Assembly: GCF_001429285.1 (NCBI RefSeq)
Contig: NZ_LMJJ01000040.1
Location: forward strand, 230,281-294,280
DNA: 64,000 bases
Reading direction: 5' to 3'
Source: Ensifer sp. Root278
GTDB lineage: Bacteria; Pseudomonadota; Alphaproteobacteria; Rhizobiales; Rhizobiaceae
A program made the translations under genes and the position numbers. Numbering within the stretch: the stretch's first letter is position 1; each line of letters begins with the position of its first letter. Shown piece after piece: positions 9,531-27,270 of the stretch. The notes under the pieces are model-generated. The model saw nothing but the letters and a program-made list of their open reading frames with translations, did no database searches and was not told where the DNA came from.

Positions 9531-9535
9531 CAGGG

Positions 9536-11602: not shown

Positions 11603-11611
11603 GCCGTCTTG

Positions 11612-11782
11612 CTCTCCCTCATTCCTGTGCTTATCACAGGAATCCAGCCGGCTTGCGTCGGCAAGCCGATAGGAACTCTTTCCATCTCGAAGCGCATGCG
11701 CTTGTTGCTTTGGTCATGGGCGGCACGGACGTGCCGCTGCTGGATTCCTGTGACAAGCACAGGGATGAGGGAGGGAGAGAGG
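11612..11782. repeat. Inverted-repeat element, copy A (MITE-like)
   Basis: About 170 bp bounded by ~35-base inverted arms. The left arm begins CTCCCTCATTCCTGTGC and the right arm ends GCACAGGGATGAGGGAG. Each arm contains its own small palindrome (CCTGTG...CACAGG). The same arms recur at 25942-26085 and 27125-27270. It lies between two genes of the carnitine operon, so it must be transcribed and would fold into a long hairpin in the mRNA. No transposase or target duplication is visible. Confidence 0.75.
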
Positions 11783-11797
11783 GTGGCCGTCATCCCG

Positions 11798-12958: not shown

Positions 12959-13094
12959 TGTGTTGTTCCCCTCGTTTTCGCGCCGCTGACGTCCGTCCCG
13001 GAGCCTCGGCCCACCTCCTCAAGCGAGCCTTGGCTGCGGTTTGCGGCTCCGCCTGAGGGCGAAGTCGCCTGTTGATGTCCTGCCGCTGTTGCGG

Positions 13095-14588
13095 TCAGGC
13101 GCGCTTCTGGCCGACGAAGCGGCCCACACCTTCCGGTGCCGGCAGCTGCGCATGTGCTTCGGAAATGGCGGCAAGCTTGCTCAATACGTGTTCCGGTGCC
13201 GGCACGGACTTACCGGCCTTGCTGTCGACATGGAGCGCCATCTGCTCGGCGGTCGCCACTGCTTCATTGGTCTCGGCGTTGTAGATCGTCGAGAAGATGT
13301 GCAGGCGCTTCTCGTCGGAGGACAGCACCTGGCAGGTCGAATAGAGCGCGTCGCCGAGCTTGGCCTCGCCGAGGTTCCGGATGTGGGTCTCGACCGTGTA
13401 GTAGCTGTGGCCGTCGCGCACATAGTCGAGATCGACGCCGATCAGGCGCAGCAGGCCGTCGGTGGTGTCGCCGAAGACCTGGAGATAGCGGTGCTCGGTC
13501 ATGTGGCCGTTGTAGTCGACCCAGGCGGCGCTCACCTTGGTGTCGACGATGCGCAGCGGCTTGACGTCGCCGAGGTCGGCTTCCGGCTTCTTGGCATTGG
13601 CCCAGAGCTTGGCCTCGAAATCGGCAAGCAGCTTGCCCGCACCCCAGCCTTCGCCGCCGTTGCCGGATTTCAGCGCGTGCATGATGCCGACGAGGTTTTC
13701 GTCGCGGATGCGCTCCAGCTCGCGGATCGAGCGGCCGGCGGCCTGCGCGTCCGACTGGGCGCCGATCTTTTCGACGAGCGCATCGTCGAGATCGACGACG
13801 TCGGTGAACTTCGTCCAGGGCCATTTCAGGCAGGGACCGAACTGGGCGAGGAAGTGGCGCATGCCGGCTTCGCCGCCGGCGATGCGATAGGTCTCGAACA
13901 GGCCCATCTGCGCCCAGCGCATGCCGAAGGAATAGCGCATGACGTTGTCGAGCGTTTCGGTATCGCAGATGTCATCCTGGATCAGCCAGAGCGCCTCGCG
14001 CCAGAGCGCCTCGAGCAGGCGGTCGCCGACGAAAGCCTCGATCTCCTTGGCGATGACGACGCCCTTCATGCCGATCTGCTCGACGCCCAACATGGCGCGC
14101 TCGATCGTCGCCTTCGACGTCTTCTTGCCGCCGACCAGTTCGACGAGCGGCAGCAGGTAGACCGGGTTATAGGGGTGCGCCACGAACATGCGCTCGGGAT
14201 GGTGCATCTCGGCTTGTAGATCGGAGGGCAAAAGACCCGAGGTGGACGAGCCGATCAGCGCATCGGCCTTTGCGGCCGCATCGATCTTGGTGATAACGCC
14301 GCGCTTCAGTTCCAGCCGTTCCGGCACACTTTCCTGAATCCAGTCAGCGCCTTCGACTGCTTCCTCGATGCTCTTGCAGAAGGTGAGTTTTCCCTTCGGC
14401 GGAAGCGGCGCCATGGTCAGCATGGCGTAGGCGCGCTCGGCATTAGCCATGACTTCGCCGATGATGCGCTCGGCTTCCGGATGCGGGTCGAAAATCTTCA
14501 CGTCGATGCCGGCGAGCGCGAAGCGCGCCACCCAGGCGCCGCCGATGACGCCGCCGCCGACACAGGCTGCTTTGGTGATAAAGCTCAT
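13095..14588 (-). CDS. lcdH: Carnitine 3-dehydrogenase fused to betainyl-CoA thioesterase
   Basis: 497 residues, two modules. Residues 1-~320 are a 3-hydroxyacyl-CoA-dehydrogenase-like NAD enzyme with GGGVIGGAW at 11-19 and the HPYNPVYLLPLVE catalytic segment. Residues ~345-480 form a hot-dog thioesterase domain beginning around Trp356 (WVDYNGHMTEHRYL). The same fusion is known in rhizobia: L-carnitine is oxidised to 3-dehydrocarnitine and, after the BKACE step, the thioesterase releases glycine betaine from betainyl-CoA. It lies 16 bp after the BKACE gene. In Pseudomonas the two functions are separate proteins (CdhA, CdhB). Confidence 0.88.
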   Translation of the reverse strand: MSFITKAACVGGGVIGGAWVARFALAGIDVKIFDPHPEAERIIGEVMANAERAYAMLTMAPLPPKGKLTFCKSIEEAVEGADWIQESVPERLELKRGVITKIDAAAKADALIGSSTSGLLPSDLQAEMHHPERMFVAHPYNPVYLLPLVELVGGKKTSKATIERAMLGVEQIGMKGVVIAKEIEAFVGDRLLEALWREALWLIQDDICDTETLDNVMRYSFGMRWAQMGLFETYRIAGGEAGMRHFLAQFGPCLKWPWTKFTDVVDLDDALVEKIGAQSDAQAAGRSIRELERIRDENLVGIMHALKSGNGGEGWGAGKLLADFEAKLWANAKKPEADLGDVKPLRIVDTKVSAAWVDYNGHMTEHRYLQVFGDTTDGLLRLIGVDLDYVRDGHSYYTVETHIRNLGEAKLGDALYSTCQVLSSDEKRLHIFSTIYNAETNEAVATAEQMALHVDSKAGKSVPAPEHVLSKLAAISEAHAQLPAPEGVGRFVGQKRA

Positions 14589-14604
14589 GGTGTTCTGCCC
14601 TTGC

Positions 14605-15507
14605 TCAGCGCTTCGTCAGCTTCAGTTTCTCGCGGACTTCCTTCGGCCCGATGATCTTGGCGCCCATGCCTTCGATGACGCCGACCGCCTTTTCGACGAG
14701 CTTGCCGTTGGTGGCGAGCTGGCCCTTGCCGATATAAAGGTTGTCTTCGAGGCCGACGCGGACGTTGCCGCCGGCAAGGACCGCCGCTGCCGGGTAGGCA
14801 AGCGCGTTGCGGCCGATGGAGAAAGCCGAGAAGGTCCAGTTATCAGGCACGTTGTTGACCATCGCCATGAAGGTGTTGAGGTCGTCAGGCGCACCCCACG
14901 GAATGCCCATGCAGAGCTGGATCAGCACCGGATCCTCGATCAGACCTTCCTCGGCGAGTTGCTTGGCGAACCAGAGATGGCCGGTGTCGAAGGCCTCGAT
15001 CTCGGGGCGGACGCCAAGTGCCGTCATCTGCCGCGCCATTTCGCGCAGCATCGACGGCGTGTTGGTCATGACGTAGTCGCCGAGCGAGAAGTTCATGGTG
15101 CCACAGTCGAGCGTGCAGATTTCCGGCAGACATTCGGCCACGTGGGCGACGCGCTCGGTGGCGCCGGCCATGTCGGTGCCCTTCTCATTGACGGGCAAGG
15201 GGCTCTCGACATTGCCGAATACCAGGTCGCCGCCCATGCCGGCCGTCAGGTTCAACACGATATCGATATCGGCGGAGCGGATGCGGTCGGTCACTTCCCG
15301 GTAGAGATCGAGCCTGCGGGAGGGCGCGCCGGTTTCCGGATCGCGAACATGGCAGTGGATCACGGCGGCCCCGGCCTTTGCCGCCTCGACCGCCGCTTCG
15401 GCGATCTGTTTCGGCGTGATCGGAACATGGCTGGACTTCGAAACGGTGTCTCCCGAGCCGGTGACGGCACAGGTGATGAATACCTCGCGGTTCATGCTGA
15501 GCGGCAT
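14605..15507 (-). CDS. Beta-keto acid cleavage enzyme, probable 3-dehydrocarnitine:acetyl-CoA cleavage (CdhC-type)
   Basis: 300 residues from the ATG at 15507, which has AGGGAG upstream; a start 36 bases further out lacks this. BKACE (DUF849) family: TIM barrel with the zinc ligands visible as HCHVRD near residue 50 and the conserved GLEDN segment near the C-terminus. It would condense acetyl-CoA with 3-dehydrocarnitine to give betainyl-CoA and acetoacetate. First gene of the carnitine operon, divergent from the CdhR-like regulator over 108 bp. The neighbour LcdH makes this substrate far more likely than the others known for the family. Confidence 0.85.
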   Translation of the reverse strand: MPLSMNREVFITCAVTGSGDTVSKSSHVPITPKQIAEAAVEAAKAGAAVIHCHVRDPETGAPSRRLDLYREVTDRIRSADIDIVLNLTAGMGGDLVFGNVESPLPVNEKGTDMAGATERVAHVAECLPEICTLDCGTMNFSLGDYVMTNTPSMLREMARQMTALGVRPEIEAFDTGHLWFAKQLAEEGLIEDPVLIQLCMGIPWGAPDDLNTFMAMVNNVPDNWTFSAFSIGRNALAYPAAAVLAGGNVRVGLEDNLYIGKGQLATNGKLVEKAVGVIEGMGAKIIGPKEVREKLKLTKR

Positions 15508-15562
15508 TGCTGTCTCCCTTTTATTGACCCCATTACGAGCCAAGAAAGGGCGCGCTGCTTTT

Positions 15563-15593
15563 CATAATCGGCTTCATCCTATACATTATCGGC
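15563..15593. promoter_or_regulatory. Candidate operator of the CdhR-like regulator: two direct repeats 21 bp apart
   Basis: CATAATCGGC at 15563-15572 and CATTATCGGC at 15584-15593 are direct repeats with 9 of 10 bases identical and a period of exactly 21 bp (two helical turns). That is the typical layout of AraC-family binding sites. They lie in the 108-bp divergent region between the BKACE operon and the regulator gene. Confidence 0.6.
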
Positions 15594-15615
15594 GATGGCG
15601 CGGAGAAGTTTAGAT

Positions 15616-16587
15616 ATGGATCAGAACGTTTCGCAGGTGCAGCACGTCGATATCCTGGTGCTGCCGGAGACCAATCTGATCCTCGTTGCCTCGGTGATCG
15701 AGCCGATGCGTGCGGCCAACCGCATCGCCGGGCGGCCGCTCTACGACTGGACGATCTACAGCCCGGATGGAGAACCGATCGAGACGAAGAGCGGCATACC
15801 CATCCCCGTCTCGGGCATCTTCCGGCCGCAGCGTGAAACGTCGCCGCTCTTCATCCTGTCGAGCTACAACTGGCAGCGTAGCGCCACCTCGCAACTGAAG
15901 ATGCTGCTTTCGCAGACCGCACGGCACCGCGAGATGATGGCGGGCATCGAATCCGGCTCATGGCTGCTTGCCGAAACCAGCCTGCTCGACAATTTCAAGG
16001 CGACCACCCACTGGGAGGATTTCGAGGATTTCACCACCACCTATCCGCAGGTGATCATGGTTCGCGAGCGCTTCGTCATCGACGGCAAGCGCATCACGAC
16101 CGGCGGCTCGCTACCGACGCTCGATCTGATGCTGGAACTGATCCGCCGTGCGCACGGCTACTCGCTGGCGCTCGAAGTGTCGCGCCTCTTCATCTACGAG
16201 CAGGAGCGCACCCGCGGCGACCTCCTGCAGATGCCGGCGATCGGCAACATGCGCATCCTCGATCCGCGCGTCGGCGCCGCCGTCAAGCTGATGGAGGAAA
16301 CCGTGGAAGCGCCGTTGACGCTGGCGCGGCTTGCCCGCCGCATCGGTGTCAGCACGCGCCACCTGCAGGATCTCTTTCGCGACACGATGGGCGTCGCGCC
16401 GCACGAGCATTACCTTGCGCTTCGCCTCAATGCGGCGCGGCGCAAGGTGATCGAGACACGTCTGGAATTTGCCGACATCGCGGCGATCTCCGGCTTCAAC
16501 TCGTCGTCGTCCTTCTCGCGAAGCTACCGGGCGCATTATCGCGAGAGCCCGAGCGAGACCCGGCGACGACTGAAGCTCAAGACTTGA
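15616..16587 (+). CDS. GlxA/CdhR-type AraC regulator of carnitine catabolism
   Basis: 323 residues from the ATG at 15616, preceded by GGAGAAG; an upstream start (15595) is less well placed. The N-terminal ~190 residues form a DJ-1/PfpI-like amidotransferase-type sensor domain (VDILVLPETNLILVASVIEP). The C-terminal ~100 residues are a double AraC HTH (LARLARRIGVSTRHLQDLFR; FADIAAISGFNSSSSFSRSY). CdhR of Pseudomonas has this architecture and activates carnitine genes on sensing carnitine. Divergent from the carnitine operon, with a tandem repeat operator candidate between them. Confidence 0.85.
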   Translation: MDQNVSQVQHVDILVLPETNLILVASVIEPMRAANRIAGRPLYDWTIYSPDGEPIETKSGIPIPVSGIFRPQRETSPLFILSSYNWQRSATSQLKMLLSQTARHREMMAGIESGSWLLAETSLLDNFKATTHWEDFEDFTTTYPQVIMVRERFVIDGKRITTGGSLPTLDLMLELIRRAHGYSLALEVSRLFIYEQERTRGDLLQMPAIGNMRILDPRVGAAVKLMEETVEAPLTLARLARRIGVSTRHLQDLFRDTMGVAPHEHYLALRLNAARRKVIETRLEFADIAAISGFNSSSSFSRSYRAHYRESPSETRRRLKLKT

Positions 16588-16689: not shown

Positions 16690-17868
16690 TCAGGCCCGTG
16701 GGCTCGCCTTCATCATCGAAATCATCAGTTCGCCGATCTCGCCGGCGAAAGCGCCGCGCGGCCAGACAAGCGTTAGGGATTGCCGGTAAGCAGGGCCAAG
16801 CCGGATCATCGCCGGAGGCCGGTGCATCCTTGCGAGCGAGGATTCCGGCAGCACCGAGAGGTAGCCGTGCTGAGCGACGAGGTTGATGATAACAGGAATG
16901 GAATCGACTTCGACGAGGGCGATGCGGCGACGCTCGGTCTCATCAAGCGTGTCGTCGAGGAAGCGGGCGGTCTCGCGGCGCAATCCGCTCCTGACGCTTG
17001 GCACTGCGATCGGGCAGGCGGCGAGCAGCCTTGGCAGGTCGCCTGCGAACGCGGAAAGGACGGAGGCGGGGCCTGCCAGCGCCAGTGGCATCTGCGACAC
17101 CAGCCTGCCGTCGCAATCCAAGGGGATCTCGGCGACATCGAGAAGGGCGGCGTCGAACCGCCTGCTTCTAAGGCCAGCCAAAAGTTCATCCGCCGTGGTG
17201 CTGGATATGTATAGCGGCTGGCGCGGGCGGGTACGTTGCCAGTTCGCCGTCAGCGCTGCCAGCATGCGGGCGATCTCGCTTTCAGGACCGAGTGGCATGA
17301 CGGCGCCCAGGCGCCAGGTGGCGGCGTCGCGGCGGAAGCGATCGGCGGATGCGTGTGTCAGCCGCGCCCAGATGTCGAGCAGGGCGTCGACAAATGGAAT
17401 GATCCGCTCTGCGGTTGCCGTGCCGAGGACACCGCCATGAGAGCGCTCGAACAGGCGGCTGCCGAGATGGCGTTCAAGGTCGGCCATCTGCCGTGTCAGC
17501 TGCGGCTGGCCGAGGCCGAGCGCCTTGGCGGTGGCGCGGATGCTGCCGGAGCGGGCGATCCGGACGAAGCGGTCGAGCGCGACGAGGCCGATCGGCGGCG
17601 TGGGATCGATCGCCTCCTTGCCTGCCGCCTCCATGATGGCAGCAATCTTGGTCGTTGCCTCCCTGATTTCAGTTGTGCGGGCGCGCGCTTCGAGCGTCAG
17701 GACGAGTGCGGTTTCTTCTCGCCGGAACAGCGACATGGAGATCGCCTGTTCAAAGCGCTTGATGGCGGCGCTGACACTTGAGGGGGCGCGTCCGCTGAGC
17801 GTGGCGGCGCGGCGGATGCCGCCTTCGCGGAGCACCGTATCGACGATCACGATCGTTGCTAAGTCCAT
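16690..17868 (-). CDS. LysR-type regulator with two tandem HTH domains
   Basis: 392 residues from the ATG at 17868 (AGAAGGA upstream), about 90 longer than a usual LysR protein. The extra length is a second winged HTH: domain 1 at residues ~2-60 (AATLSGRAPSSVSAAIKRFE) and domain 2 at ~95-155 (RATAKALGLGQPQLTRQMAD, LERHLGSRLFER). A LysR substrate-binding domain follows (~175-385). It is divergent from the ergothionase-like gene across ~220 bp, so it probably controls the ergothioneine operon, perhaps with ergothioneine or thiourocanate as effector (inference). Domain 1 is the more divergent copy and may have lost DNA contacts. Confidence 0.8.
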   Translation of the reverse strand: MDLATIVIVDTVLREGGIRRAATLSGRAPSSVSAAIKRFEQAISMSLFRREETALVLTLEARARTTEIREATTKIAAIMEAAGKEAIDPTPPIGLVALDRFVRIARSGSIRATAKALGLGQPQLTRQMADLERHLGSRLFERSHGGVLGTATAERIIPFVDALLDIWARLTHASADRFRRDAATWRLGAVMPLGPESEIARMLAALTANWQRTRPRQPLYISSTTADELLAGLRSRRFDAALLDVAEIPLDCDGRLVSQMPLALAGPASVLSAFAGDLPRLLAACPIAVPSVRSGLRRETARFLDDTLDETERRRIALVEVDSIPVIINLVAQHGYLSVLPESSLARMHRPPAMIRLGPAYRQSLTLVWPRGAFAGEIGELMISMMKASPRA

Positions 17869-18087
17869 TCGGCGATCCTTCTGCCAGACGAGCGGTACCA
17901 TGCGCCGATGGCATGTCCATGATTACGCATTGCCCGTTCCAGATTTGGGATATAGCACGAGCGGGCGATAAGCGCATAGCATGCACAAAGCAACCAAGGC
18001 CTTGCGAGCGGCGGTTGCGAGACATCAGAGCATCCGCGCACCGTTTCGAAACCGAAGCGGCTCCTGCGCGGGAAGGTATCCATCGGC

Positions 18088-19626
18088 ATGCTGCATCAGG
18101 TCAAATCCATCGTTCTCTGCGGGAAACCGCTGGACTTCGCGACGCTCGAGGACATCGGGGCGGGAAGGGTTCGGCCGGTGGCCGATGACGGCGGCATGGA
18201 GCGGGTGGCCGCGGCCCACAAGGTGGTTGCCGAGCGTGTCGCGATGGGGCTTCCCGTCTATGGTTCCAACACCGGCGTCGGCTCGATGAAGGACCGTCTC
18301 TGGACGGCCGACGATCTGGCTGAATTCAACAATTCGCTGGTCAGAGCCCACCATTTCGGCACCGGCGAGTTCTTCGCGCCGGCGATCGTGCGCATGGCGA
18401 TCGCCATCCGCGTCAACACCGCCATGCGCGGCCACACCGGCTGCAGCCCGGATCTGATCCGGGCGTTTCTGTCCCTTCTTGCGTCCGACATCATTCCGGC
18501 CGTGCGCCGGCACGGCTCGATGGGCTGCGCCGATATCGGCCTGATGGGGCAGATCGCCTCGGTGCTGACAGGCGTCGGCGAGGCCTACTATCAAGGGCGC
18601 CTCGTTTCGGCCGAGACGGCGCTTGCCGAGGCGGGCCTGAAGCCATTCGTCATGCAGCCGCGCGACGCGCTGGCGGCGCTCAGCGTCAATGCCATTTCCT
18701 TCGCCGCGGCGGCCAACGTGCTGCGCGAGGCGGCGGCCGCGATCCGCGTGCTGCTCGTCACCGGCGTTATGTCATCCTTAGCGCTTGGCGCGTCGGCCGA
18801 TCCGTGGCGGGTGGCGGCAACGCTCTCGACCCGCGGCGAGGCGCTGGTCGGCTCCTGGCTCTACGGTCAATCCGGTGTTGCAGACTGGCCGGTGCCGACG
18901 GCCATCCACGATCCGCTCAGCCTGCGCATGACCGCCCAGGTGTTCGGCGCCGTCGTCGATACACTGATGGTTGCCGCCGGGCGGCTGGTGGAGGCGACCT
19001 ATCTCTCCGACGACAACCCGGTGGTGCTCGGCGGCCAGGTGCATTCCTCCGGTGCGTCGCTGCCGTTGACGACGACGCTTTATATCGAAGCGGCACAGAT
19101 CGCCTTTTCGCATGCGGCACGCAACGTGTTGAACCGCTGCATCCTTCTGTCGAACGGCGGACGTCGCAATCTCTCGGTCAATCTTGTCGCGCCGGGAGAG
19201 GTGGCGACCGGGCTCGGCCCGCTGATGAAGCTCGCCGTCGAACTTTACATGCGGGTGCAGTCGCTGGCCGTGCCGCTCTCGGCGCAATCGATCGTCGTTG
19301 CCGGCGGTCTCGAAGAAGAAGCGACCTTCCTGCCGCTGATCGTCGAGCGCATGGAAACGCAGGTGCGGGACCTGCGCCAGCTTGCCGCCATCGAGGCGAT
19401 GCTGTCGTCGCAGGCGATCGATCTCGTCGGTGACCAGCCGCAGGGCGTCGTCAAGCGCGCCTACGACCAGACCCGTTCCGTCAGCCCTATGTATCTCAAG
19501 GACCGGCCGCTCTCGAAGGAGATCGAGGCGCTGCAGGATGCCTTCACCTGCCACGATCTGCTGCGCTCCTTCGTCGCCACCGCACCGATGCCGGAGTTCG
19601 ACGACTTCTTCGCGCTCGGCAAGTGA
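18088..19626 (+). CDS. Ergothionase-like lyase (histidine ammonia-lyase fold without MIO triad)
   Basis: 512 residues, homologous throughout to histidine/phenylalanine ammonia-lyases (VYGSNTGVGSMKD at ~57-69, with Tyr58 as the usual catalytic Tyr; SDDNPVVLGGQVHSSG). In true HAL/PAL the Ala-Ser-Gly within GSVGASGDL cyclises to the MIO cofactor. Here the segment reads GSMGCADIG, with Cys147-Ala148-Asp149, so MIO cannot form. Ergothionase, which eliminates trimethylamine from ergothioneine to give thiourocanate, is to my knowledge a MIO-independent member of this fold. The following genes encode the rest of that pathway. First gene of the operon; GGGAAGG lies ~10 bases upstream. Confidence 0.82.
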   Translation: MLHQVKSIVLCGKPLDFATLEDIGAGRVRPVADDGGMERVAAAHKVVAERVAMGLPVYGSNTGVGSMKDRLWTADDLAEFNNSLVRAHHFGTGEFFAPAIVRMAIAIRVNTAMRGHTGCSPDLIRAFLSLLASDIIPAVRRHGSMGCADIGLMGQIASVLTGVGEAYYQGRLVSAETALAEAGLKPFVMQPRDALAALSVNAISFAAAANVLREAAAAIRVLLVTGVMSSLALGASADPWRVAATLSTRGEALVGSWLYGQSGVADWPVPTAIHDPLSLRMTAQVFGAVVDTLMVAAGRLVEATYLSDDNPVVLGGQVHSSGASLPLTTTLYIEAAQIAFSHAARNVLNRCILLSNGGRRNLSVNLVAPGEVATGLGPLMKLAVELYMRVQSLAVPLSAQSIVVAGGLEEEATFLPLIVERMETQVRDLRQLAAIEAMLSSQAIDLVGDQPQGVVKRAYDQTRSVSPMYLKDRPLSKEIEALQDAFTCHDLLRSFVATAPMPEFDDFFALGK

Positions 19627-19654
19627 CCCACACCTGACCCATCGGGAGTACAGC

Positions 19655-21031
19655 ATGTCCGATTTCGATCTCGTTCTGAAAGGCACCGTTGTTCTCCCTC
19701 ACCGGATCGTCGAGGGCGGGCACGTGGCGGTTCGCGACGGCAAGGTGGTGCATGTCGGCCAGGGAGCGGCACCGGCGGCACGCGAGCGGCATGATCTCGG
19801 GAATGCGCTGATCCTGCCCGGCGCCGTGGATGCGCAGGTGCATTCGCTGTCGCAGAAGAACCAGGAGGATTTCATCTGGTCGACGCGTTCGGCGGCTGCC
19901 GGCGGCGTCACCACCATCGTCGACATGCCCTATGACGAGGGCAATCTCGTCTGCTCGGCTGAAGCCCTTCGCCGCAAGATCGACCATGCCGGTCCGCAGG
20001 CGCGTGTCGACTTCGCGCTTTATGGCACCGTCGACCCAGAGGAGGGGCCGGCACGCATCGGCGAAATGGTGGAGGCGGGTGTCGCCGCCTTCAAGTTCTC
20101 GACCTTCGGCACCGATCCCAAGCGCTTTCCGCGCATTCCGGCGGCGCTCCTTGAAGATTGCTTCCGCGCGATCGCGCCAACCGGGCTTGCCGCCGGCGTC
20201 CACAACGAGGACGACGAGGCGGTGCGCGCCGCGATCGATAAGGTCAAGGCGGCGGGCATCACCGACTACCGCGCCCACGGGCTGTCGCGCCCGCCGCTGA
20301 CGGAACTGCTTGCCACCAACCAGATTTATGAGACCGGCGCTGCCACGGGCTGCCCCGCGCATGTGGTGCACTGCTCGCTCGGCCGTGGCTACGAGATTGC
20401 CGCCGCCTACCGCGCGCAAGGACATGCGGCGACGATCGAGTGCTGCATCCACTATCTGACGCTCGACGAGGAAAACGACGTCCGGCGCCTCGGCGGCAAG
20501 GCGAAGATCAATCCGCCGATCCGCCCGCGCGCCGAGGTCGAGAAACTCTGGCGGCATGTGGCCGATGGTACGGTGACGATGGTCTCGACCGATCATGTGA
20601 GCTGGTCGGAGGACCGCAAGACCAATCCGGACATGCTGGCCAATGCCTCCGGCGTGCCGGGGCTGGAAGTCATGGTGCCGCTCTTCGTCAAAGGCGCGCT
20701 CGAACGGGGCATTCCGTTGACGCGAGCAGCCGAACTGATGACGCTGAACCCGGCGCGGCATTTTCGTCTGGACCACCAGAAGGGCGCGCTCGAATCCGGC
20801 AAGGACGCCGATATCATCGTCATGACGCCTGAGCCCTATGTCTATGACGCAGCGGCAAGCGGTCACAACGTTGTCGGCTGGTCGCCCTATAACGGTATCA
20901 GGCTACCCTGGCGGGTATCTGCCACGTATCTGCGCGGCAGGCTCGCCTTCGATGGTCGCGAGGTGCTGGCCGAGCCCGGTGTTGGGCAATTCGTCCGGCC
21001 GCTGGCCACGTTGGCGCTGCAGGAGGCGTGA
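19655..21031 (+). CDS. Dihydropyrimidinase/hydantoinase-like amidohydrolase (probable hydantoin-5-propionate hydrolase)
   Basis: 458 residues; start chosen at 19655 with GGGAG upstream. Cyclic amidohydrolase fold: metal-site segments FKFSTFG (lysine to be carboxylated), GVHNED, VHCSLG and STDHVSW are all present. The first motif, normally H-x-H, reads DAQVHS with Gln61 in place of the first histidine, so one metal ligand is altered. In the ergothioneine route this enzyme would open L-hydantoin-5-propionate to N-carbamoyl-L-glutamate. It lies 28 bp after the lyase and is coupled to the carbamoylase gene (TGATG). An allantoinase or dihydropyrimidinase role is less likely given the neighbours. 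Confidence 0.78.
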   Translation: MSDFDLVLKGTVVLPHRIVEGGHVAVRDGKVVHVGQGAAPAARERHDLGNALILPGAVDAQVHSLSQKNQEDFIWSTRSAAAGGVTTIVDMPYDEGNLVCSAEALRRKIDHAGPQARVDFALYGTVDPEEGPARIGEMVEAGVAAFKFSTFGTDPKRFPRIPAALLEDCFRAIAPTGLAAGVHNEDDEAVRAAIDKVKAAGITDYRAHGLSRPPLTELLATNQIYETGAATGCPAHVVHCSLGRGYEIAAAYRAQGHAATIECCIHYLTLDEENDVRRLGGKAKINPPIRPRAEVEKLWRHVADGTVTMVSTDHVSWSEDRKTNPDMLANASGVPGLEVMVPLFVKGALERGIPLTRAAELMTLNPARHFRLDHQKGALESGKDADIIVMTPEPYVYDAAASGHNVVGWSPYNGIRLPWRVSATYLRGRLAFDGREVLAEPGVGQFVRPLATLALQEA

Positions 21032-22314
21032 TGAGCAAGACCGCCCACAACAAGGTCCCGGCCAATCTGCCTGTCAATGCCGGCCGGATCGCCGGCATCG
21101 TGAACGGTTTGGCCGGCATCACCGAGCTCGACCGGCCCTACACACGCCGCGCTTTCACGCCGCTGTTTCTCGAGGGCCGCGCCTTCCTCGACCGGCGCTT
21201 CCGTGCCGCCGGGCTCGAAACCCGGATCGACGCCGCCGGAAATCTGATCGGCCGGCGCAAGGGGCGCAAGTCGGCGCTCGGCACCATCATGCTCGGCTCC
21301 CATTCCGACACGGTGCCGGACGGCGGCCGCTTCGACGGTATCGCCGGCGTTGCGGCCGCGCTCGAAGTGGCGCGGGCCCTGGCCGACAACGGCATCGAGC
21401 TCGACCATGATCTGGAGATCGTCGATTTTCTCGCGGAGGAAGTGTCGATCTTCGGCGTTTCCTGCGTCGGCAGCCGCGGCATGGCGGGCGTGCTGCCTGA
21501 TGGCTGGCTGAGCCGTACCCAGGGCGAACTCAGTCTGCGGCAGGGTATCGTCGAGGTCGGCGGTGATCCGTCGCGGCTTTCGGGTTCCAAGCGCTCCGAC
21601 ATCAGGGCATTTCTGGAACTGCACATCGAGCAGGGGCCGGTGCTCGAAACCGGGCGGCTCGATGTCGGCGTCGTGACCGCCATTTCCGGCATCACTCGCA
21701 TCGAGATCATCGTCGAGGGGCAGGCGGATCACGCCGGCACGACGCCGATGGGGCATCGGCGCGACGCGCTGGTCGCAGCCTCGCGGCTCGTGCTGGAGAT
21801 CGAGCGGCTGGCGATGGAACTCTCGCAAGGCGAGGGGCATTTCACCGCAACGGTCGGCGAATTTGCGATCGAGCCGAATGCGGCGAATGTGGTGCCGTCG
21901 CGCGTGCGGTTGTTGATCGACGCGCGTGCCGAGCTCAGGCCGCAGATGGAGCGGTTTCTCGCGACGCTTGGGCCCCTTTGCAACGGCCTCGCCGAGGCAT
22001 CGGGCGTGACGATCGCGCCTGCCAATGTGATTTCCGACAACCACCCGACGCCGGGCGATGCGCTGCTGCTCTCGACGCTGGAAGAAAGCTGCGACGCAAT
22101 CGGCGCCAAGCACCGGCGCATGGCGTCCGGTGCCGGCCACGATACCGCCTGGATGGGGCGCATCACCCGCTCGGCGATGATCTTCATACCCTGCCTCGGC
22201 GGGCGCTCGCATGCGCCGGAGGAATGGGCCGAAAACGACGACATCGCGCTTGGCGCCGCCGTTCTTTTCGATGCGGTGAAGAGGCTCGACAGACGATTGC
22301 AGGAGAAGGTGTGA
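21031..22314 (+). CDS. M20-family N-carbamoyl-L-amino acid hydrolase (probable N-carbamoyl-L-glutamate hydrolase)
   Basis: 427 residues from the ATG that overlaps the preceding stop (TGATG). Binuclear zinc motifs of the AmaB/HyuC amidohydrolases are visible: GSHSDTVPDGGRFDG (His, Asp), LAEEVSIFG (Glu-Glu), LHIEQGPVLE and GAGHDTAWM near the C-terminus. The lid/dimerisation insert (GQADHAGTTPMGHRRD) is typical. It would release L-glutamate, CO2 and NH3 from N-carbamoyl-L-glutamate, the last step of the proposed ergothioneine route. Allantoate amidohydrolase is the main alternative family member, but no ureide genes are nearby. Confidence 0.82.
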   Translation: MSKTAHNKVPANLPVNAGRIAGIVNGLAGITELDRPYTRRAFTPLFLEGRAFLDRRFRAAGLETRIDAAGNLIGRRKGRKSALGTIMLGSHSDTVPDGGRFDGIAGVAAALEVARALADNGIELDHDLEIVDFLAEEVSIFGVSCVGSRGMAGVLPDGWLSRTQGELSLRQGIVEVGGDPSRLSGSKRSDIRAFLELHIEQGPVLETGRLDVGVVTAISGITRIEIIVEGQADHAGTTPMGHRRDALVAASRLVLEIERLAMELSQGEGHFTATVGEFAIEPNAANVVPSRVRLLIDARAELRPQMERFLATLGPLCNGLAEASGVTIAPANVISDNHPTPGDALLLSTLEESCDAIGAKHRRMASGAGHDTAWMGRITRSAMIFIPCLGGRSHAPEEWAENDDIALGAAVLFDAVKRLDRRLQEKV

Positions 22315-22315
22315 G

Positions 22316-23410
22316 ATGGGCCGGATACTGAAGGAAAAGGACGTCGAGGCGGCGGTCAAGGGCGGCTCCGTCTATGCCGCCGGCGGTGGCGGCTGGGCCG
22401 ACCATGGCCGCATGCTTGGCTACGCCGCGGTCTCGATCGGCAAGCCCGAGCTGGTGTCGATCGACGAGCTCGACGCCAACGATTGGGTGGCGACGGCAGC
22501 GGCCATCGGCGCCCCGGCCTCGACCACGCCCTGGGAAATGCGCGGCGTCGACTACGTCAAGGCGGTGCAACTGTTGCAGGAGGCGCTCGGCGAGAAGCTC
22601 TCGGGCCTGATCATCGGCCAGAACGGCAAGTCCTCGACGCTCAACGGTTGGCTGCCCTCGGCAATCCTCGGCACCAAGGTGGTTGACGCGGTCGGCGATA
22701 TCCGCGCGCATCCGACCGGCGACATGGGCTCGATCGGCCTTGCTGGTTCACCCGAACCGATGATCCAGACGGCGGTCGGCGGAAATCGCGACGAGAACCG
22801 TTATATCGAGCTGGTGGTGCGCGGCGCCACCGCCAAGGTCTCGCCGGTCCTGCGCACCGCGTCGGACATGTCGGGCGGCTTCATCGCATCCTGCCGCAAT
22901 CCGGTGAGGGCGTCCTACGTGAAAGCCAATGCGGCGCTCGGAGGTATCTCGCTGGCGCTGGCTCTGGGTGAGGCGATCATCGCGGCGGAAGCCAAGGGCG
23001 GCAGCGCTATCATCGACGCGATCGTCAAAGCGACCAATGGCGCGATCCTTGCCGAAGGCACGATCACCGACAAATCGGTCGTCTATACCAAGGAAGCCTT
23101 CGACATTGGCACGGTGACGCTGGGGAAGGGCGCTGACTCGACGGTACTGCACGTGATGAACGAATACATGGCGGTTGACTCTGCGGAAGGCCAAAGGCGC
23201 GCGACCTTCCCCGACGTCATCACCACGCTTTCGCCCGACGGCGAACCCTTGAGCGTCGGGCAATTGCAGGTGGGGATGAGGATCTTCGTGCTGCATGTGC
23301 CGAAGACGGTGATCCCGCTTTCTTCCAGCGTACTCGACCCGACGGTCTATCCATCCGTCGAAAAGGCGATGGGCATCGAGCTTGCCCGCTACGCGCTTTC
23401 CGAAAGCTGA
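22316..23410 (+). CDS. DUF917-family protein (probable thiohydantoin desulfurase)
   Basis: 364 residues, DUF917 / S-methyl-thiohydantoin-desulfurase family over the full length (VYAAGGGGWADHGRMLGYAA near the N-terminus; C-terminal domain with LHVMNEYMAV). ATG two bases after the preceding stop. In bacterial ergothioneine degradation the thioxo-imidazolidine propionate formed from thiourocanate must lose its sulfur as H2S to become hydantoin-5-propionate. This family is the natural candidate for that desulfhydrase step. Older annotations call such proteins hypothetical or hydantoinase-associated. The family is confident; the exact reaction is inferred from the operon. Confidence 0.75.
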   Translation: MGRILKEKDVEAAVKGGSVYAAGGGGWADHGRMLGYAAVSIGKPELVSIDELDANDWVATAAAIGAPASTTPWEMRGVDYVKAVQLLQEALGEKLSGLIIGQNGKSSTLNGWLPSAILGTKVVDAVGDIRAHPTGDMGSIGLAGSPEPMIQTAVGGNRDENRYIELVVRGATAKVSPVLRTASDMSGGFIASCRNPVRASYVKANAALGGISLALALGEAIIAAEAKGGSAIIDAIVKATNGAILAEGTITDKSVVYTKEAFDIGTVTLGKGADSTVLHVMNEYMAVDSAEGQRRATFPDVITTLSPDGEPLSVGQLQVGMRIFVLHVPKTVIPLSSSVLDPTVYPSVEKAMGIELARYALSES

Positions 23411-23423
23411 CGGGAGCGATGCC

Positions 23424-23753
23424 ATGGCGCGTGATGCAGGGCTTGAGGAACTGATACGGGAGGAACTCGGCGAGCGAGCCGGCCTTTCGGAAAAGGCGAT
23501 GTTCGGCGGCTGGGCCTATCTGCTGCATGGCAACCTGCTCCTTGGCGCACGCGAGGGCTCGCTGCTGGTGCGGCTCGGCAAGGGCAATGACGGCTGGGCG
23601 CTGGCACTACCCGATATCGAGCTGATGGTGATGAACGGGCGGGCGATGCACGGCTGGGTGCGCGCAGGCGCGGATGCCTACGGCGACGATGCCTTGCGCC
23701 GGCGGCTGCTCGATGGGGCGGTTGCGTTCGTGGAGACGCTGCCGCCGAAGTGA
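23424..23753 (+). CDS. TfoX N-terminal-domain protein
   Basis: 109 residues from the ATG at 23424 (CGGGAG upstream). Only the N-terminal domain of TfoX/Sxy is present: LIREELGERAGLSEKAMFGG, WAYLLHGNLLLG, then a basic-aromatic stretch (MNGRAMHGWVRAG). Stand-alone TfoX-N proteins are common in alphaproteobacteria, often next to unrelated enzymes, with no proven function. It is co-directional with, and 13 bp after, the DUF917 gene, so it is probably co-transcribed with the ergothioneine genes. A second paralogue lies at 54179-54523. Confidence 0.75.
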   Translation: MARDAGLEELIREELGERAGLSEKAMFGGWAYLLHGNLLLGAREGSLLVRLGKGNDGWALALPDIELMVMNGRAMHGWVRAGADAYGDDALRRRLLDGAVAFVETLPPK

Positions 23754-23812
23754 TGTGATGACACGGAGAATGTAGTATCATCCAAGTTATATGTCTTGGC
23801 GAGGATTGCTTT

Positions 23813-24193
23813 ATGTTTAGATCGCGATCAGCTAGCTTAGTTCATTTTTTTATCGGTGTTGGTTTGCCCTATTTTGCAATTTTATCAATGTATATAAATG
23901 CATGGATATTGTATTTAAATTATAGATTGTCTATCGGCAGTGTTAGTATTGATGTAATCAGAATCATGATAAAGTCATATAATTATAGTTTGTATTCAGT
24001 TCTTTTATATTTCGCTCCTGTTTGGCTTATTTACATGGCCGCGAACTGGCGGGCCTATCTGTCTATTTTAGCGGATGCGACAGATAGAGAGAGGTGGAAG
24101 AAGGATCCTGCTTTAAGAGAAACCATTCTAGGGATGAGCATTTTCTACTGGGACGAGTTGGTCAAAGAATGTGAATCGCTGCCTGCGAAATGA
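23813..24193 (+). CDS. Small AT-rich membrane protein, unknown function
   Basis: 126 residues. Base composition changes sharply from ~23760 to ~24190: runs such as TTTTTTTATC and ATATAAATG contrast with the GC-rich neighbours, which suggests acquired DNA. Two hydrophobic stretches (~9-33, IGVGLPYFAILSMYINAWIL, and ~57-78, VLLYFAPVWLIYMAANW) predict two membrane helices, with a charged C-terminal cytoplasmic tail (ATDRERWKKDPALRETILG). I recognise no family. It sits between the TfoX-like gene and the thiourocanate-hydratase-like gene, interrupting an otherwise compact operon while preserving its direction. Confidence 0.6.
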   Translation: MFRSRSASLVHFFIGVGLPYFAILSMYINAWILYLNYRLSIGSVSIDVIRIMIKSYNYSLYSVLLYFAPVWLIYMAANWRAYLSILADATDRERWKKDPALRETILGMSIFYWDELVKECESLPAK

Positions 24194-24241
24194 AACAGGC
24201 GTTCGTCGCCGGTCGGCGAGACAACAAAGAGGAACAAGACG

Positions 24242-25900
24242 ATGCCCAAGGCCAATCCCCGGCACCCTAATTTTCCGATCCCCGGCGGGCCGGAGCTGCG
24301 CGCCAAGGGCTGGCGGCAGGAGGCGCTGTTGCGGCTCCTCGAAAACGTGCTTTCGGTCGGCGAGGATCCGGACAATCTGATCGTCTATGCCGCACTCGGC
24401 AAGGCGGCGCGCAACTGGCCGGCGCATCGCGCCATCGTCAAGACGCTCACCGAGATGGACGAGGACCAGACGCTGATCATCCAGTCGGGCAAACCCGTGG
24501 GTCTGCTCCAGACCCATGCCAAGGCGCCGCTGGTGATCATGGCCAATTGCAACATCGTCGGCCAATGGGCGAAGGCGGAGGTGTTCTATGAATTGCAGCG
24601 CAAGGGGCTGATCTGCTGGGGCGGGCTGACGGCCGGCGCCTGGCAATATATCGGCAGCCAGGGGGTGATCCAGGGCACCTACGAGATTTTCATGCGCATC
24701 GCCGAGCGCCGATTCGGCGGCGATCTCTTCGGTCGTTTCGTGCTGACGGCGGGTCTCGGCGGCATGGGCGGGGCGCAGCCGCTCGCCGGCCGCATGGCGG
24801 GGGCTGCGATCCTCTGCGTTGACATTGATGCGGAGCGGGCGAAGAAGCGCCGGGAGATCGGCTATCTCCAGGAGATCGCGCCGGATCTCGATGCGGCGCT
24901 GGCGATGATCGACGCGGCTGTGAAGGAGAAGCGCGCGCTTTCCGTCGGCCTCGTCGGCAATGCGGCGGAAATCTACCCGGAAATCGCACGGCGCGGCATC
25001 GTGCCCGACGTGGTGACCGACCAGACCTCGGCGCATGATCTCGTCTACGGCTACGTGCCGAAGGGCATGAGCCTCGACCAGGTGAAGTCGCTGCGCGATG
25101 ACGGCCAGGGGCAATTGATGGCGGCAAGCCGTGCCTCGATCGTCGAACACGTCAAGGCGATGCTCGACTTGCAGAAAAAGGGCTCGGAAGTCTTCGACAA
25201 CGGCAACCTGATCCGCACCCAGGCCCGCGAGGGCGGCGTTGCCAATGCCTTCGACATTCCGATCTTCACCGAAGCCTATCTCAGGCCGCTCTTTGCCCGC
25301 GCCATCGGGCCGTTCCGCTGGATGGCGCTGTCAGGCGAGGAGAGCGACATCGCCCGCATCGACGACCTTTTGCTGGAGATGTTCCCGGACAACAAGATCA
25401 TCACCAACTGGATCAAGCTCGCACGTCAGCATATCCCGTTCGAGGGCCTGCCGGCCCGCATCGCCTGGCTCGGCCATGGCGAGCGCACGGCACTGGCGCG
25501 GCGCGTCAACGAACTGGTGGCGTCCGGCGAACTCAAGGGGCCGATCGCGTTCTCGCGCGACCATCTCGATGCTGGCGCCATGGCGCACCCGAACATCATG
25601 ACCGAGCGGATGAAGGACGGATCGGACGCGATCGCCGATTGGCCCTTGCTCGACGCCATGCTGCTCTGCTCGTCGATGGCCGATCTCGTCGTCGTGCATT
25701 CCGGCGGCGGCGGCTATGCCGGCTATATGACCAGCTGCGGCGTGACCGTCGTTGCCGACGGCACGGCTGAGGCCGACGAGCGGCTCGACCATGCGCTCAC
25801 CAACGATACCGCGCTCGGCGTCATCCGTTATGCCGATGCCGGCTACGACGAGAGCTTCGAGGAGATCGCCGCCAAGGGCATCGGGCATGTGAAGGTGTAG
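24242..25900 (+). CDS. Urocanase-family enzyme, probable thiourocanate hydratase
   Basis: 552 residues, urocanase fold throughout. The NAD-binding segment TAGLGGMGGAQPLAGR (~178-193) and VTDQTSAHD are urocanase hallmarks. The catalytic-region motif that is HHGGG-V-G in HutU reads HSGGGGY here (His486 onward), and the nearby segment is LLCSSMADLVVVHS, so the substrate pocket differs from true urocanase. With the ergothionase-like and DUF917 genes in the same operon, hydration of thiourocanate to 3-(5-oxo-2-thioxoimidazolidin-4-yl)propionate is the likely reaction. A plain histidine-degrading HutU is disfavoured because HutH, HutI and HutF are not adjacent. AAGAGG lies just upstream of the start. 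Confidence 0.8.
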   Translation: MPKANPRHPNFPIPGGPELRAKGWRQEALLRLLENVLSVGEDPDNLIVYAALGKAARNWPAHRAIVKTLTEMDEDQTLIIQSGKPVGLLQTHAKAPLVIMANCNIVGQWAKAEVFYELQRKGLICWGGLTAGAWQYIGSQGVIQGTYEIFMRIAERRFGGDLFGRFVLTAGLGGMGGAQPLAGRMAGAAILCVDIDAERAKKRREIGYLQEIAPDLDAALAMIDAAVKEKRALSVGLVGNAAEIYPEIARRGIVPDVVTDQTSAHDLVYGYVPKGMSLDQVKSLRDDGQGQLMAASRASIVEHVKAMLDLQKKGSEVFDNGNLIRTQAREGGVANAFDIPIFTEAYLRPLFARAIGPFRWMALSGEESDIARIDDLLLEMFPDNKIITNWIKLARQHIPFEGLPARIAWLGHGERTALARRVNELVASGELKGPIAFSRDHLDAGAMAHPNIMTERMKDGSDAIADWPLLDAMLLCSSMADLVVVHSGGGGYAGYMTSCGVTVVADGTAEADERLDHALTNDTALGVIRYADAGYDESFEEIAAKGIGHVKV

Positions 25901-25941
25901 GCCTTGGCGCAAGGCCCGCGCAGGGCCGTCACATTCACCGA

Positions 25942-26085
25942 CCTCATTCCTGTGCCTGTCACAGGAATCCAGCAGCGCCGCGTCGGCGGCGCTAGAGACG
26001 CTTTCATTTTCGCTGACTGCAGAGCGTCATTCACGGCGCGGACGCGCTGTGGCTGGATTTCTGTGACAAGCACAGAAATGAGGGA
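25942..26085. repeat. Inverted-repeat element, copy B (MITE-like)
   Basis: The arms CCTCATTCCTGTGCCTGTC and GACAAGCACAGAAATGAGG bracket ~145 bp. The interior has a smaller GC-rich hairpin (GCGCCGCG..CGGCGGCGC). The element ends ~220 bp before the methyltransferase gene. It is closer to copy C than to copy A: both share the inner string TCATTCACGGCGCGGACGCG. The remainder of the 25901-26305 gap shows no convincing gene. Confidence 0.75.
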
Positions 26086-26305
26086 GAAGAGGAAACGCTC
26101 CAGGTCCTCAGGCAAGGGCGATGGTCGAGGCGGCGATGGCCGGCCTCAGACAGAGCGCAGAAAATGTGACGATCGTCGCTGGCTTTGCGGCCGATCAACA
26201 GCTGGCCTGCCTCGCTGACTTGCGGGATTCCACCTGTCCGGCTCTGAGGCTTGGGCTTGAGCAATGCAAGCGCTAATATGCCGCCTTTGCTGCCCGGAGG
26301 CGATC

Positions 26306-27112
26306 ATGACGTCGAGCTTCAATGTGCAGAGTGCGGCCGGCTATGAACAACTGATGGGGCGGTGGAGCAGGCAGCTGGCGCCGTTGTTCATCGACTTTGC
26401 CGGCATTACCGACGGCGAACGGGTGCTGGACGTCGGCTGTGGCACCGGAAGCCTGACCTTCGCGCTGCCGCATGCCGCAAATCTCAGCGAGATTGTCGCG
26501 ATCGATTTTTCACCCGTCTTCGTCGAGGCGGCGACCCGGGCGAACAGCGATCCACGGATCAGGATCCAGCAGGCCGATGCCTGCGCGCTTCCCTTTGCCG
26601 ATGCTTCTTTCGACCGGGCGCTGGCGCTGCTGGTGCTGCATTTCGTTCCGGAGGCGGGAAAGGCGGTTGCCGAGATGCGCCGGGTCACGCGGCCGGGCGG
26701 CGTGGTCGCCGCTGTGGTCTGGGATCATCTTGGCGGCATGCCAGGCATGCGCATGGTGCTCGATACGGCGGCGATGCTCGATGAGAATGCGGAACAAATA
26801 CGCAGCCGCTATTGCTTCCAGCCGATGATGCGGCCGGGCGAAATGATGCAGAGCTTTGCGGCGCATGGCCTTGAAAAGATCGAGCAGACCTCTCTCATGA
26901 TCCGGATGGACTATCAGTCGTTCGAGGATTTCTGGCAGCCGATCGCGGCGGGCGAGGGACCCTTGGGCAAATATGTCGGCGGGCTGGATCAGGCGCTGCG
27001 GGCAAAGGTCGATGCGGCGGTCAAGGCCGCCTATGAGGCCGGCCAGCCCGACGGTCCCCGGTCCTTTGCGGCGGTGGCTTGGGCATGCCGGGGGACGGTT
27101 CCGGAGGCCTGA
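26306..27112 (+). CDS. SAM-dependent class I methyltransferase
   Basis: 268 residues from the ATG at 26306, with GGAGG at 26296-26300. Motif I VLDVGCGTGSLTF lies at ~residues 39-51; the acidic post-I position (AIDFSP) and motif with DAxxLPFADASFDRAL follow, as in UbiE/Methyltransf_11 enzymes. The substrate is unknown. The gene is transcribed with the ergothioneine operon direction but separated from it by ~400 bp holding repeat copy B. Repeat copy C follows 12 bp after the stop, so the gene is bracketed by two same-orientation repeats. Confidence 0.85.
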   Translation: MTSSFNVQSAAGYEQLMGRWSRQLAPLFIDFAGITDGERVLDVGCGTGSLTFALPHAANLSEIVAIDFSPVFVEAATRANSDPRIRIQQADACALPFADASFDRALALLVLHFVPEAGKAVAEMRRVTRPGGVVAAVVWDHLGGMPGMRMVLDTAAMLDENAEQIRSRYCFQPMMRPGEMMQSFAAHGLEKIEQTSLMIRMDYQSFEDFWQPIAAGEGPLGKYVGGLDQALRAKVDAAVKAAYEAGQPDGPRSFAAVAWACRGTVPEA

Positions 27113-27124
27113 TAAGGTCGCCAA

Positions 27125-27270
27125 CCTCATCCCTGTGCTCGTCACAGGGATCCAGCAGCGGCGCGTCGGTGGTGCGAAAGGCACCTTCGATCCGGCGTTC
27201 TAAAGAGTCATTCACGGCGCGGACGCGCCATGGCTGGATTTCTGTGACAGGCACAGAAATGAGGGAGGGG
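27125..27270. repeat. Inverted-repeat element, copy C (MITE-like)
   Basis: Third copy, ~146 bp, with arms CCTCATCCCTGTGCTCGTC and GACAGGCACAGAAATGAGG, in the same orientation as copy B. It begins 12 bp downstream of the methyltransferase stop and lies between that gene and the converging SDR gene, so it may also act as a bidirectional terminator hairpin. Confidence 0.75.

Follow-up and report, generated by a model that had tools for sequence, protein, structure and literature searches.

A predicted ergothioneine-utilisation operon with a tandem helix-turn-helix LysR-type regulator in Ensifer sp. Root278

Organization of the locus

The window, a stretch of 64,000 nucleotides from Ensifer sp. 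Root278, contains at positions 18088-25900 a row of five co-directional enzyme open reading frames (ORFs) with a divergent LysR-type regulator gene beside it, and it is the predicted role of this row in the utilisation of ergothioneine, together with its regulator and an operator-like element between the two, that is considered here (Table 1). Ergothioneine is an antioxidant that fungi and some bacteria produce and that plants and animals take up; its degraders in soil and the rhizosphere are little mapped. The host genome comprises 7.1 Mb in 44 contigs, with the window on contig C40; in a genome-collection scan its closest named relatives are Ensifer species, the lyase of Ensifer sp. LC11 being 98% identical.

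Six ORFs were found where the preliminary description had placed them, with the hydantoinase start refined to 19655, and its family calls (a lyase devoid of the 4-methylideneimidazole-5-one [MIO] cofactor, a hydantoinase, an M20 protein, a DUF917 protein, a urocanase paralogue and a LysR regulator) are borne out by the Pfam domains: Lyase_aromatic, Amidohydro_1, Peptidase_M20, the N- and C-terminal S-Me-THD domains (DUF917 in older annotation), three urocanase domains and, on the minus strand, HTH_1 with a substrate domain. Absent from that description were the two helix-turn-helix (HTH) domains of the regulator and the conserved operator-like element in the gap. The names ErtD and ErtE come from NCBIfam models, and ErtA, ErtB, ErtC and ErtR are labels coined here. 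The ORFs are tightly spaced, ErtD starting 28 bases past the ErtA stop, ErtD and ErtE overlapping by 4 bases, and ErtE and ErtC lying 1 base apart. A longer possible ORF for ErtR reaches 17901.

Table 1. Features of the predicted ergothioneine-utilisation locus, in window coordinates
Feature	Coordinates	Strand	Evidence and remarks
ErtR, tandem-HTH LysR-type regulator	16690..17868	-	392 aa, conserved start MD(L/I)AT
Probable operator, two direct boxes: GTCCATGATTACGCAT (17915-17930) and GTTCCAGATTTGGGAT (17936-17951)	17915..17951	+	gap alignment
Conserved GCATAGCATG block, 3' of operator, perhaps promoter	17974..17983	+	gap alignment; putative role
ErtA, MIO-less lyase, predicted ergothionase	18088..19626	+	PF00221 264 bits, above cut-off; PDB 6s7j
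ErtD, hydantoin-5-propionate amidohydrolase	19655..21031	+	NF058538 802.8 bits, cut-off 600
ErtE, N-carbamoyl-L-glutamate amidohydrolase, M20 family	21028..22314	+	NF058540 598.7 bits, cut-off 520
ErtC, thiohydantoin desulfurase, DUF917/S-Me-THD family	22316..23410	+	NF058529 601 bits, cut-off 440
TfoX_N-like small ORF, ErtC-ErtB interval	23424..23753	+	PF04993 31.8 bits, cut-off 30.1
AT-rich membrane-protein-like ORF	23813..24193	+	37.3% GC; no Pfam match
ErtB, thiourocanate hydratase, urocanase paralogue	24242..25900	+	NF058530 1059.9 bits, cut-off 930

Assignment of the downstream enzymes

Four of the five enzymes, namely ErtB, ErtC, ErtD and ErtE, pass the NCBIfam equivalog cut-offs for the ergothioneine route, as thiourocanate hydratase, thiohydantoin desulfurase, hydantoin-5-propionate hydrolase and N-carbamoyl-glutamate hydrolase, respectively (Table 1), and the best PDB match of ErtB is 7ned (E 2e-247). 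With the fifth, a lyase that carries the ergothionase residue set, they sustain the earlier proposal of one gene for each of five steps. A second ErtD model, NF058539, is failed by ErtD (383 bits against 650).

A paralogous system for histidine or pyrimidine/hydantoin salvage would draw on the same folds, those of HutH, HutU, hydantoinase and carbamoylase, and ErtB does pass the general hutU model (699 bits against 375). The models specific to those routes nevertheless stay under their cut-offs (hutH, 205 bits against 539; D-hydantoinase, 205 against 393; allantoinase, 283 against 358), ErtA has no MIO triad, and a separate HutH with an intact triad lies close to a second urocanase elsewhere in the host (C6:20832-22202 and C6:23571-24197), one more lyase being found on contig C41. 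The probability of salvage is practically negligible. The preliminary description had allowed that the best homologues might belong to histidine or pyrimidine pathways; for the lyase and the hydantoinase no such model exceeds its cut-off, whereas the carbamoylase prefers a general Zn-hydrolase model.

Degradation of S-methyl-ergothioneine uses the same enzyme families, according to the NCBIfam descriptions, yet ErtB and ErtC fall short of the S-methyl hydratase (742 bits against 880) and desulfurase (284 against 450) models while passing the plain ones. The two kinds of model discriminate, because the control locus L099, whose ErtC is under cut-off, scores the opposite way. There the S-methyl score is the higher for both proteins, ErtB just exceeding the S-methyl cut-off (880.6 against 880) and ErtC remaining under it (409.5 against 450), so that the reversal is full for ErtB and amounts for ErtC to a higher, sub-cut-off score. 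An S-methyl route is thus very improbable. On model cut-offs, the histidine, pyrimidine and S-methyl routes were all rejected in favour of the plain ergothioneine route.

Conservation and distribution among rhizobia

The genome-collection scan, which was seeded with ErtA and speaks only to loci that possess it, returned 56 loci in Ensifer, Sinorhizobium, Rhizobium, Pararhizobium, Shinella and Mycoplana, some being assigned only to 'Rhizobiales'. LysR, ErtA, ErtD, ErtE and ErtC are matched in all 56 loci and ErtB in 55, and the order LysR< ErtA> ErtD> ErtE> ErtC> ErtB> is kept in the same number, the exception being a 10.6-kb contig with no ErtB (L028). Genes are disrupted in a few loci (L059, L061). 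Conservation of the operon is far beyond chance.

Among 199 genomes of the family, ErtC is over its cut-off in 26, and a lyase at least 50% identical to ErtA is encoded by 20 (in two pieces in G011), all of them among the 26; no lyase at that identity was found in the 173 genomes without ErtC over its cut-off. In a sample of the class, ErtC occurs in 5 of 289 genomes, that of the window included. It had been proposed that such an operon, with its regulator and added small genes, would be new in a rhizobium. Given 56 rhizobial loci, a lyase in 20 of 199 family genomes and an ergothionase reported from Agrobacterium (PMC13405746), that novelty is lost for the operon and its small genes, while the regulator may indeed be new.

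The lyase ErtA

ErtA matches no NCBIfam ergothionase model, and HutH and related models lie far under their cut-offs. Its best PDB match is the Treponema denticola ergothionase (6s7j, E 1e-54), followed by a probable HutH (5e-40) and other HutH proteins (~1e-31). The loop that reads G-S-V-G-A-S-G-D in the host's own HutH is G-S-M-G-C-A-D in ErtA (GC-AD in the alignment); it is one residue shorter and lacks Ala-Ser-Gly, and ErtA therefore has no MIO. Besides the shortened loop, Tyr58, Lys68, Lys381 and Glu409 are common to ErtA and the T. denticola enzyme. When the window protein is aligned with 54 rhizobial ErtA, the T. denticola enzyme and further lyases, Tyr58, Lys381 and Glu409 are present in 54 of 54 ErtA and Lys68 in 53, with one Arg, in a count that omits the disrupted matches L059 and L061 and the repeats L003, L073 and L100. 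The same set is complete in the lyases of T. denticola, B. arboris (Burkholderia arboris), P. denitrificans and two family genomes (G096, G170), and both lysines are absent from all six HutH, which have Ala and Val at these positions. Four further MIO-less lyases (L091-L094) have Lys381 and lack Lys68.

Two additional properties characterize this protein. The N-terminus of ErtA has no clear signal-peptide-like stretch, with a peak hydropathy of 0.85; the values for the 54 rhizobial ErtA span 0.55-1.47, an upper end at which this measure alone is not decisive. Signal-peptide-like N-termini, with peaks of 1.5-2.1, occur in the B. arboris, P. denitrificans, G096 and G170 lyases, and this Burkholderia/Paracoccus type, we infer, acts in the periplasm. 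In a maximum-likelihood tree of 31 lyases, unrooted, with long branches flagged and with convergence and deep divergence not separable, 15 ErtA form one group (100/100).

The separate clade and the Cys in its loop are compatible with ErtA being a general trimethylammonium-imidazole lyase and the operon serving a relative of ergothioneine, such as ergothioneine sulfonate or hercynine. A bacterial route for the sulfonate is, moreover, in print, being cited for Agrobacterium radiobacter. A desulfurase such as ErtC would be needed, however, only where the C=S bond is still intact in the hydantoin. The sulfonate would lose sulfite earlier and hercynine contains no sulfur, and all 20 family genomes whose ErtA reaches 50% identity have an ErtC over its cut-off. 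Degradation of such a relative is therefore unlikely to a high degree, and ergothioneine is retained as the predicted substrate.

Three of the other MIO-less proteins of the aromatic-lyase family come from Rhizobiaceae (L092, L093, L094), with loops GA-GD or GT-GD and without Lys68. The third PF00221 protein of the host genome (L102, contig C41) has a loop that aligns as GSVG---YL, without Ala-Ser-Gly.

The regulator ErtR

Members of the LysR family typically have one HTH per chain and about 300 residues. ErtR is a member by its domains, HTH_1 and a C-terminal LysR_substrate domain above cut-off, both of which occur in all 29 aligned proteins (that of the window and those of 28 of the 56 loci, picked for spread), and it departs from the family pattern in being some 100 residues longer than usual and in having two HTH_1 stretches. 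ErtR is matched in 56 of 56 rhizobial loci at 48-92% identity, and in most its length is ~385-446 residues; the nine other LysR matches listed for the host, in frames of 298-333 residues, begin to align no earlier than query residue 90.

Whether the first HTH is a working domain bears directly on how the operator is read. It could be a decayed or accidental N-terminal extension, with the two boxes of the operator forming an ordinary LysR recognition/activation pair: ordinary LysR tetramers also span two neighbouring sites, and the linker between the two HTHs tolerates an in-frame, repeat-like insertion in six loci (L025, L026, L028, L029, L032, L062). The extension is nonetheless recognizable on its own. 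The N-terminal HTH of ErtR alone matches HTH_1 at E 2.7e-10. Ten proteins were tested by their N-terminal halves, and all ten exceed the gathering cut-off of HTH_1, in a set that includes Paracoccus, Thalassospira, Neorhizobium and P. denitrificans proteins, some only ~32-47% identical overall. Within the first HTH match (residues 7-62), thirteen residues are invariant in 29 of 29 aligned proteins. A decayed or accidental extension is in our view unlikely, if still a serious contender, and two functional HTHs per chain are the preferred reading.

A second tandem-HTH LysR protein, 45% identical to ErtR, was found at L091 (2662-6986), where it adjoins a different MIO-less lyase. This lyase has a GA-AD loop without Lys68, and no ert enzyme was matched in the 12 kb examined.

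The probable operator

Alignment of the LysR-ErtA gap of the window with those of 33 loci reveals two direct boxes, 21 bp apart. The T-N11-A core typical of LysR sites is present in 26 of 33 readable rows at the distal box and in 25 at the proximal one, the window having it at the latter alone. The GCATAGCATG block that follows is altered in the Shinella and Mycoplana types.

The pattern CATN5GTTCN5TTGGGATAT, at up to 2 mismatches, occurs exactly once in 55 of the 56 loci and is missing from L061, a count that is not independent, the pattern having been derived from the alignment of the window with 33 of them. Its position inside the LysR-ErtA gap was confirmed in 54 loci, with L059, whose LysR is broken, judged apart, and no second site was found in the 1.16 Mb of locus sequence scanned. 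The 7.1-Mb host genome has a single site at up to 1 mismatch and one further site at 2 mismatches, against 2 in a reversed control; a wider regulon in the host was rejected on the lack of a second site at up to 1 mismatch. In the 199 family genomes there are 29 sites at up to 1 mismatch, 18 of them within ~170 bases upstream of ErtA, and these 18 account for all but two (G011 and G088) of the 20 genomes that have ErtA.

Beyond these, the operator precedes ErtA in L064, L065, L086, L087, L089, L090, L096 and L097 and ErtD in L065, L068, L069 and L072. The pattern scan did not find it in L088, L091 and L098, among others.

ErtD-E-C-B blocks without ErtA

The four downstream genes also occur without ErtA. 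Among ten plasmid records with a close ErtC there are four, from P. aminophilus (L068), T. marina (L069), Neorhizobium sp. NCHU2750 (L070) and Rhizobium sp. CC-CFT758 (L071), in which ErtD-E-C-B appears with no lyase match in the 16.5-19 kb examined. A LysR protein 40-47% identical to ErtR is present in the first three; none was matched in L071, where the ErtC match is split over two frames. In P. denitrificans (L072) the D-E-C-B proteins are 59-79% identical and a lyase of the other type (28%) is encoded downstream. For B. arboris (L073) the identity is 70% for ErtC and ErtB, 46-47% for ErtD and ErtE and 30% for the lyase.

Of the ErtC-positive family genomes, six are without ErtA (G049, G068, G096, G152, G156, G170), and in two of these, G096 and G170, a lyase of the other type adjoins ErtD. 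The further lyase matches that were examined, from five of the six, are HutH with an intact triad in five of five cases, and G156 gave no lyase match at 1e-30.

These arrangements suggest, at roughly even odds, that ErtD-E-C-B is a portable thiourocanate-utilisation module under a new LysR type, with two HTHs per chain and a double-box operator, into which lyases of at least two separate clades have been inserted: ErtA, which is cytoplasmic, and the Burkholderia/Paracoccus-type ergothionase, which is exported. Where no lyase is linked, the bacteria may feed on thiourocanate that others release.

A Microvirga plasmid (L074, 9001-17342) carries ErtC with ErtD- and ErtE-like genes, adjoining flavin reductase, racemase and oxidoreductase genes, and gave no lyase or hydratase match. 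This cluster is perhaps another thiohydantoin route.

Uptake

Three loci (L088, L096, L097) have a gene for an OsmF-type quaternary-ammonium binding protein in the ErtA-ErtD interval, and L087 has one between ErtA and ErtC. The two of these proteins that were tested, from L087 and L097, both pass the OsmF model (for L087, NF049931 at 494.7 bits against a cut-off of 400), and the adjacent ATPase genes match ATP-binding cassette (ABC) models. In L064 a related system is encoded apart, in an operon that has a copy of the operator 44 bp ahead of the binding-protein start. The host has a binding protein 72-73% identical on contig C6 (44293-45171), without an operator. An OsmF-type ergothioneine importer is a fair prediction for the relatives and a candidate only in the host.

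EgtUV is an ergothioneine ABC importer (PMC9732360). The operon-linked binding protein of L087 resembles the EgtUC chains (match ~1e-24) and differs from EgtUV in its OsmF subtype; its link to ergothioneine is a prediction, and its gene lies outside the window.

Proposed pathway and its weight

Gene content, family membership, the residue signature and operator conservation are what the nucleotide and protein sequences themselves supply, and all reactions, operator binding, the identity of the inducer and the uptake of ergothioneine are deduced from them. The locus is very probably a complete operon for ergothioneine utilisation, acting in the cytoplasm and leading from ergothioneine to glutamate. 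ErtA would split ergothioneine into thiourocanate and trimethylamine by a MIO-independent elimination, after which ErtB would add water to thiourocanate to give the thiohydantoin propionate. ErtC would then swap the thione sulfur for oxygen, with release of H2S, ErtD would open the hydantoin ring to N-carbamoyl-glutamate, and ErtE would convert this to glutamate, CO2 and ammonia. ErtR, with two winged HTHs per chain, is predicted to act on the two boxes, 21 bp apart, and to activate this operon alone. Thiourocanate or a later intermediate is the probable inducer, given that a like regulator and operator precede ErtD-E-C-B in loci without ErtA.

The host genome gave no match to the EgtD-type family PF10017 of ergothioneine synthesis. 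Nor does it have a DUF1989 domain, as carried by Tdm, the only type of trimethylamine enzyme sought.

Several observations pull the other way. In the lyase tree, T. denticola groups with the Burkholderia/Paracoccus-type lyases (97/96), apart from ErtA, which is itself only ~30% identical to the lyase beside B. arboris ErtB/ErtC, and the transfer of substrate by homology is therefore weaker here. The loop residue is Cys in ErtA (C147) and Glu in 5 of 6 members of the Treponema/Burkholderia-type clade, and Tyr/Lys/Lys/Glu are presumed to be the catalytic residues, as reportedly in the Treponema enzyme. The general Zn-hydrolase model scores 685 for ErtE, above the ErtE model itself, both being passed. 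L087 and L098 have no ErtD or ErtE in the stretch examined (16 kb for L087), and the operator scan found no operator-linked transporter in the host genome. As for the operator, 11 of the 29 sites in the 199 genomes are not at ErtA and are unexplained or background (reversed control, 1), and among the lyase-less loci it is present at 2 mismatches in L068 and L069 and was not found by the pattern scan in L070 and L071.

Relation to known systems

Five-step bacterial catabolism of ergothioneine has reportedly been described by Beliaeva, Leisinger and Seebeck (ACS Chem Biol 16:397, 2021). The operon has the same five enzyme classes, one gene per step, with four NCBIfam equivalogs passed, and its ergothioneine function is thus already a known pathway and not new. 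What is new, and can be tested, lies in three points: the two-headed regulator and its operator, the occurrence of the module without its lyase, and the separation of the ErtA clade. Set beside that pathway, the lyase here belongs to another clade than the Burkholderia/Treponema type and the regulator has two HTH domains; the gene order differs from that of B. arboris, ErtC-ErtB being divergent from ErtD-ErtE there. ErtA resembles the T. denticola and B. arboris lyases in PF00221 membership, lack of MIO, short loop and the Tyr/Lys/Lys/Glu set, and is unlike the latter in identity and in having no clear exported-type N-terminus. The Burkholderia side of this comparison rests on the B. arboris locus, the HME13 sequence standing outside it.

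ErtR shares with other LysR regulators its HTH_1 and LysR_substrate domains, an orientation divergent from its target and the T-N11-A core, present in both boxes of many relatives and in one box of the window, and it is set apart by the second N-terminal HTH_1 and its length. No description of a rhizobial ergothioneine operon, of ErtR or of a tandem-HTH LysR appeared among the literature matches listed, a coverage outside which most subscription journals lie.

Ergothionase has been definitively identified in few microbes, given in one recent account as Burkholderia sp., two Cupriavidus species, A. radiobacter and T. denticola (PMC13405746). In the rhizobia, a lyase with the ergothionase residue set heads a complete row of five genes in 55 of 56 loci. 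The operator, in turn, offers a sequence handle on inducer, importer and regulon and would, if it is one, predict an unrecognised OsmF-type ergothioneine importer in relatives, and a two-headed LysR, if true, would depart, in a way that can be tested, from a regulator family that is very large and much studied.

Neighbouring genes and minor features

The small genes that had been counted as additions to the operon are not fixed components of it: as pathway parts, the two ORFs before ErtB were rejected on conservation. The TfoX_N-like ORF, found in 33 of 56 loci, is an optional passenger. The ORF at 23813-24193, with relatives in 0 of 56 loci and a GC content of 37.3% against 64% for the window, is probably a recent insert outside the conserved system.

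Upstream, a carnitine degradation cluster adjoins the operon (8748-16587), comprising a carnitine 3-dehydrogenase (911 bits), a BKACE protein and, both under cut-off, a crotonobetainyl-CoA hydratase-like protein and a CdhR/GbdR-like regulator. Carnitine and ergothioneine are both trimethylammonium compounds, and the linkage is conserved, BKACE and the CdhR-like regulator being present in 55 of 56 rhizobial loci. The cluster was excluded from the system because no BKACE or carnitine-dehydrogenase match is among those listed for L064-L099. Downstream lies a Pot-type ABC cluster. Its binding protein occurs in 16 of 56 loci, and many loci end short of it.

A hairpin 3' of ErtB folds better than most shuffles (z -2.7), and no terminator is claimed for it. 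The minus-strand frames 25843-26115 and 26510-27184 open with a near-identical peptide, APPTRRCWIPVT; an exact palindrome search found the first copy only. These openings suggest repeat copies flanking a methyltransferase gene (26264-27112), which is present in 10 of 56 loci.

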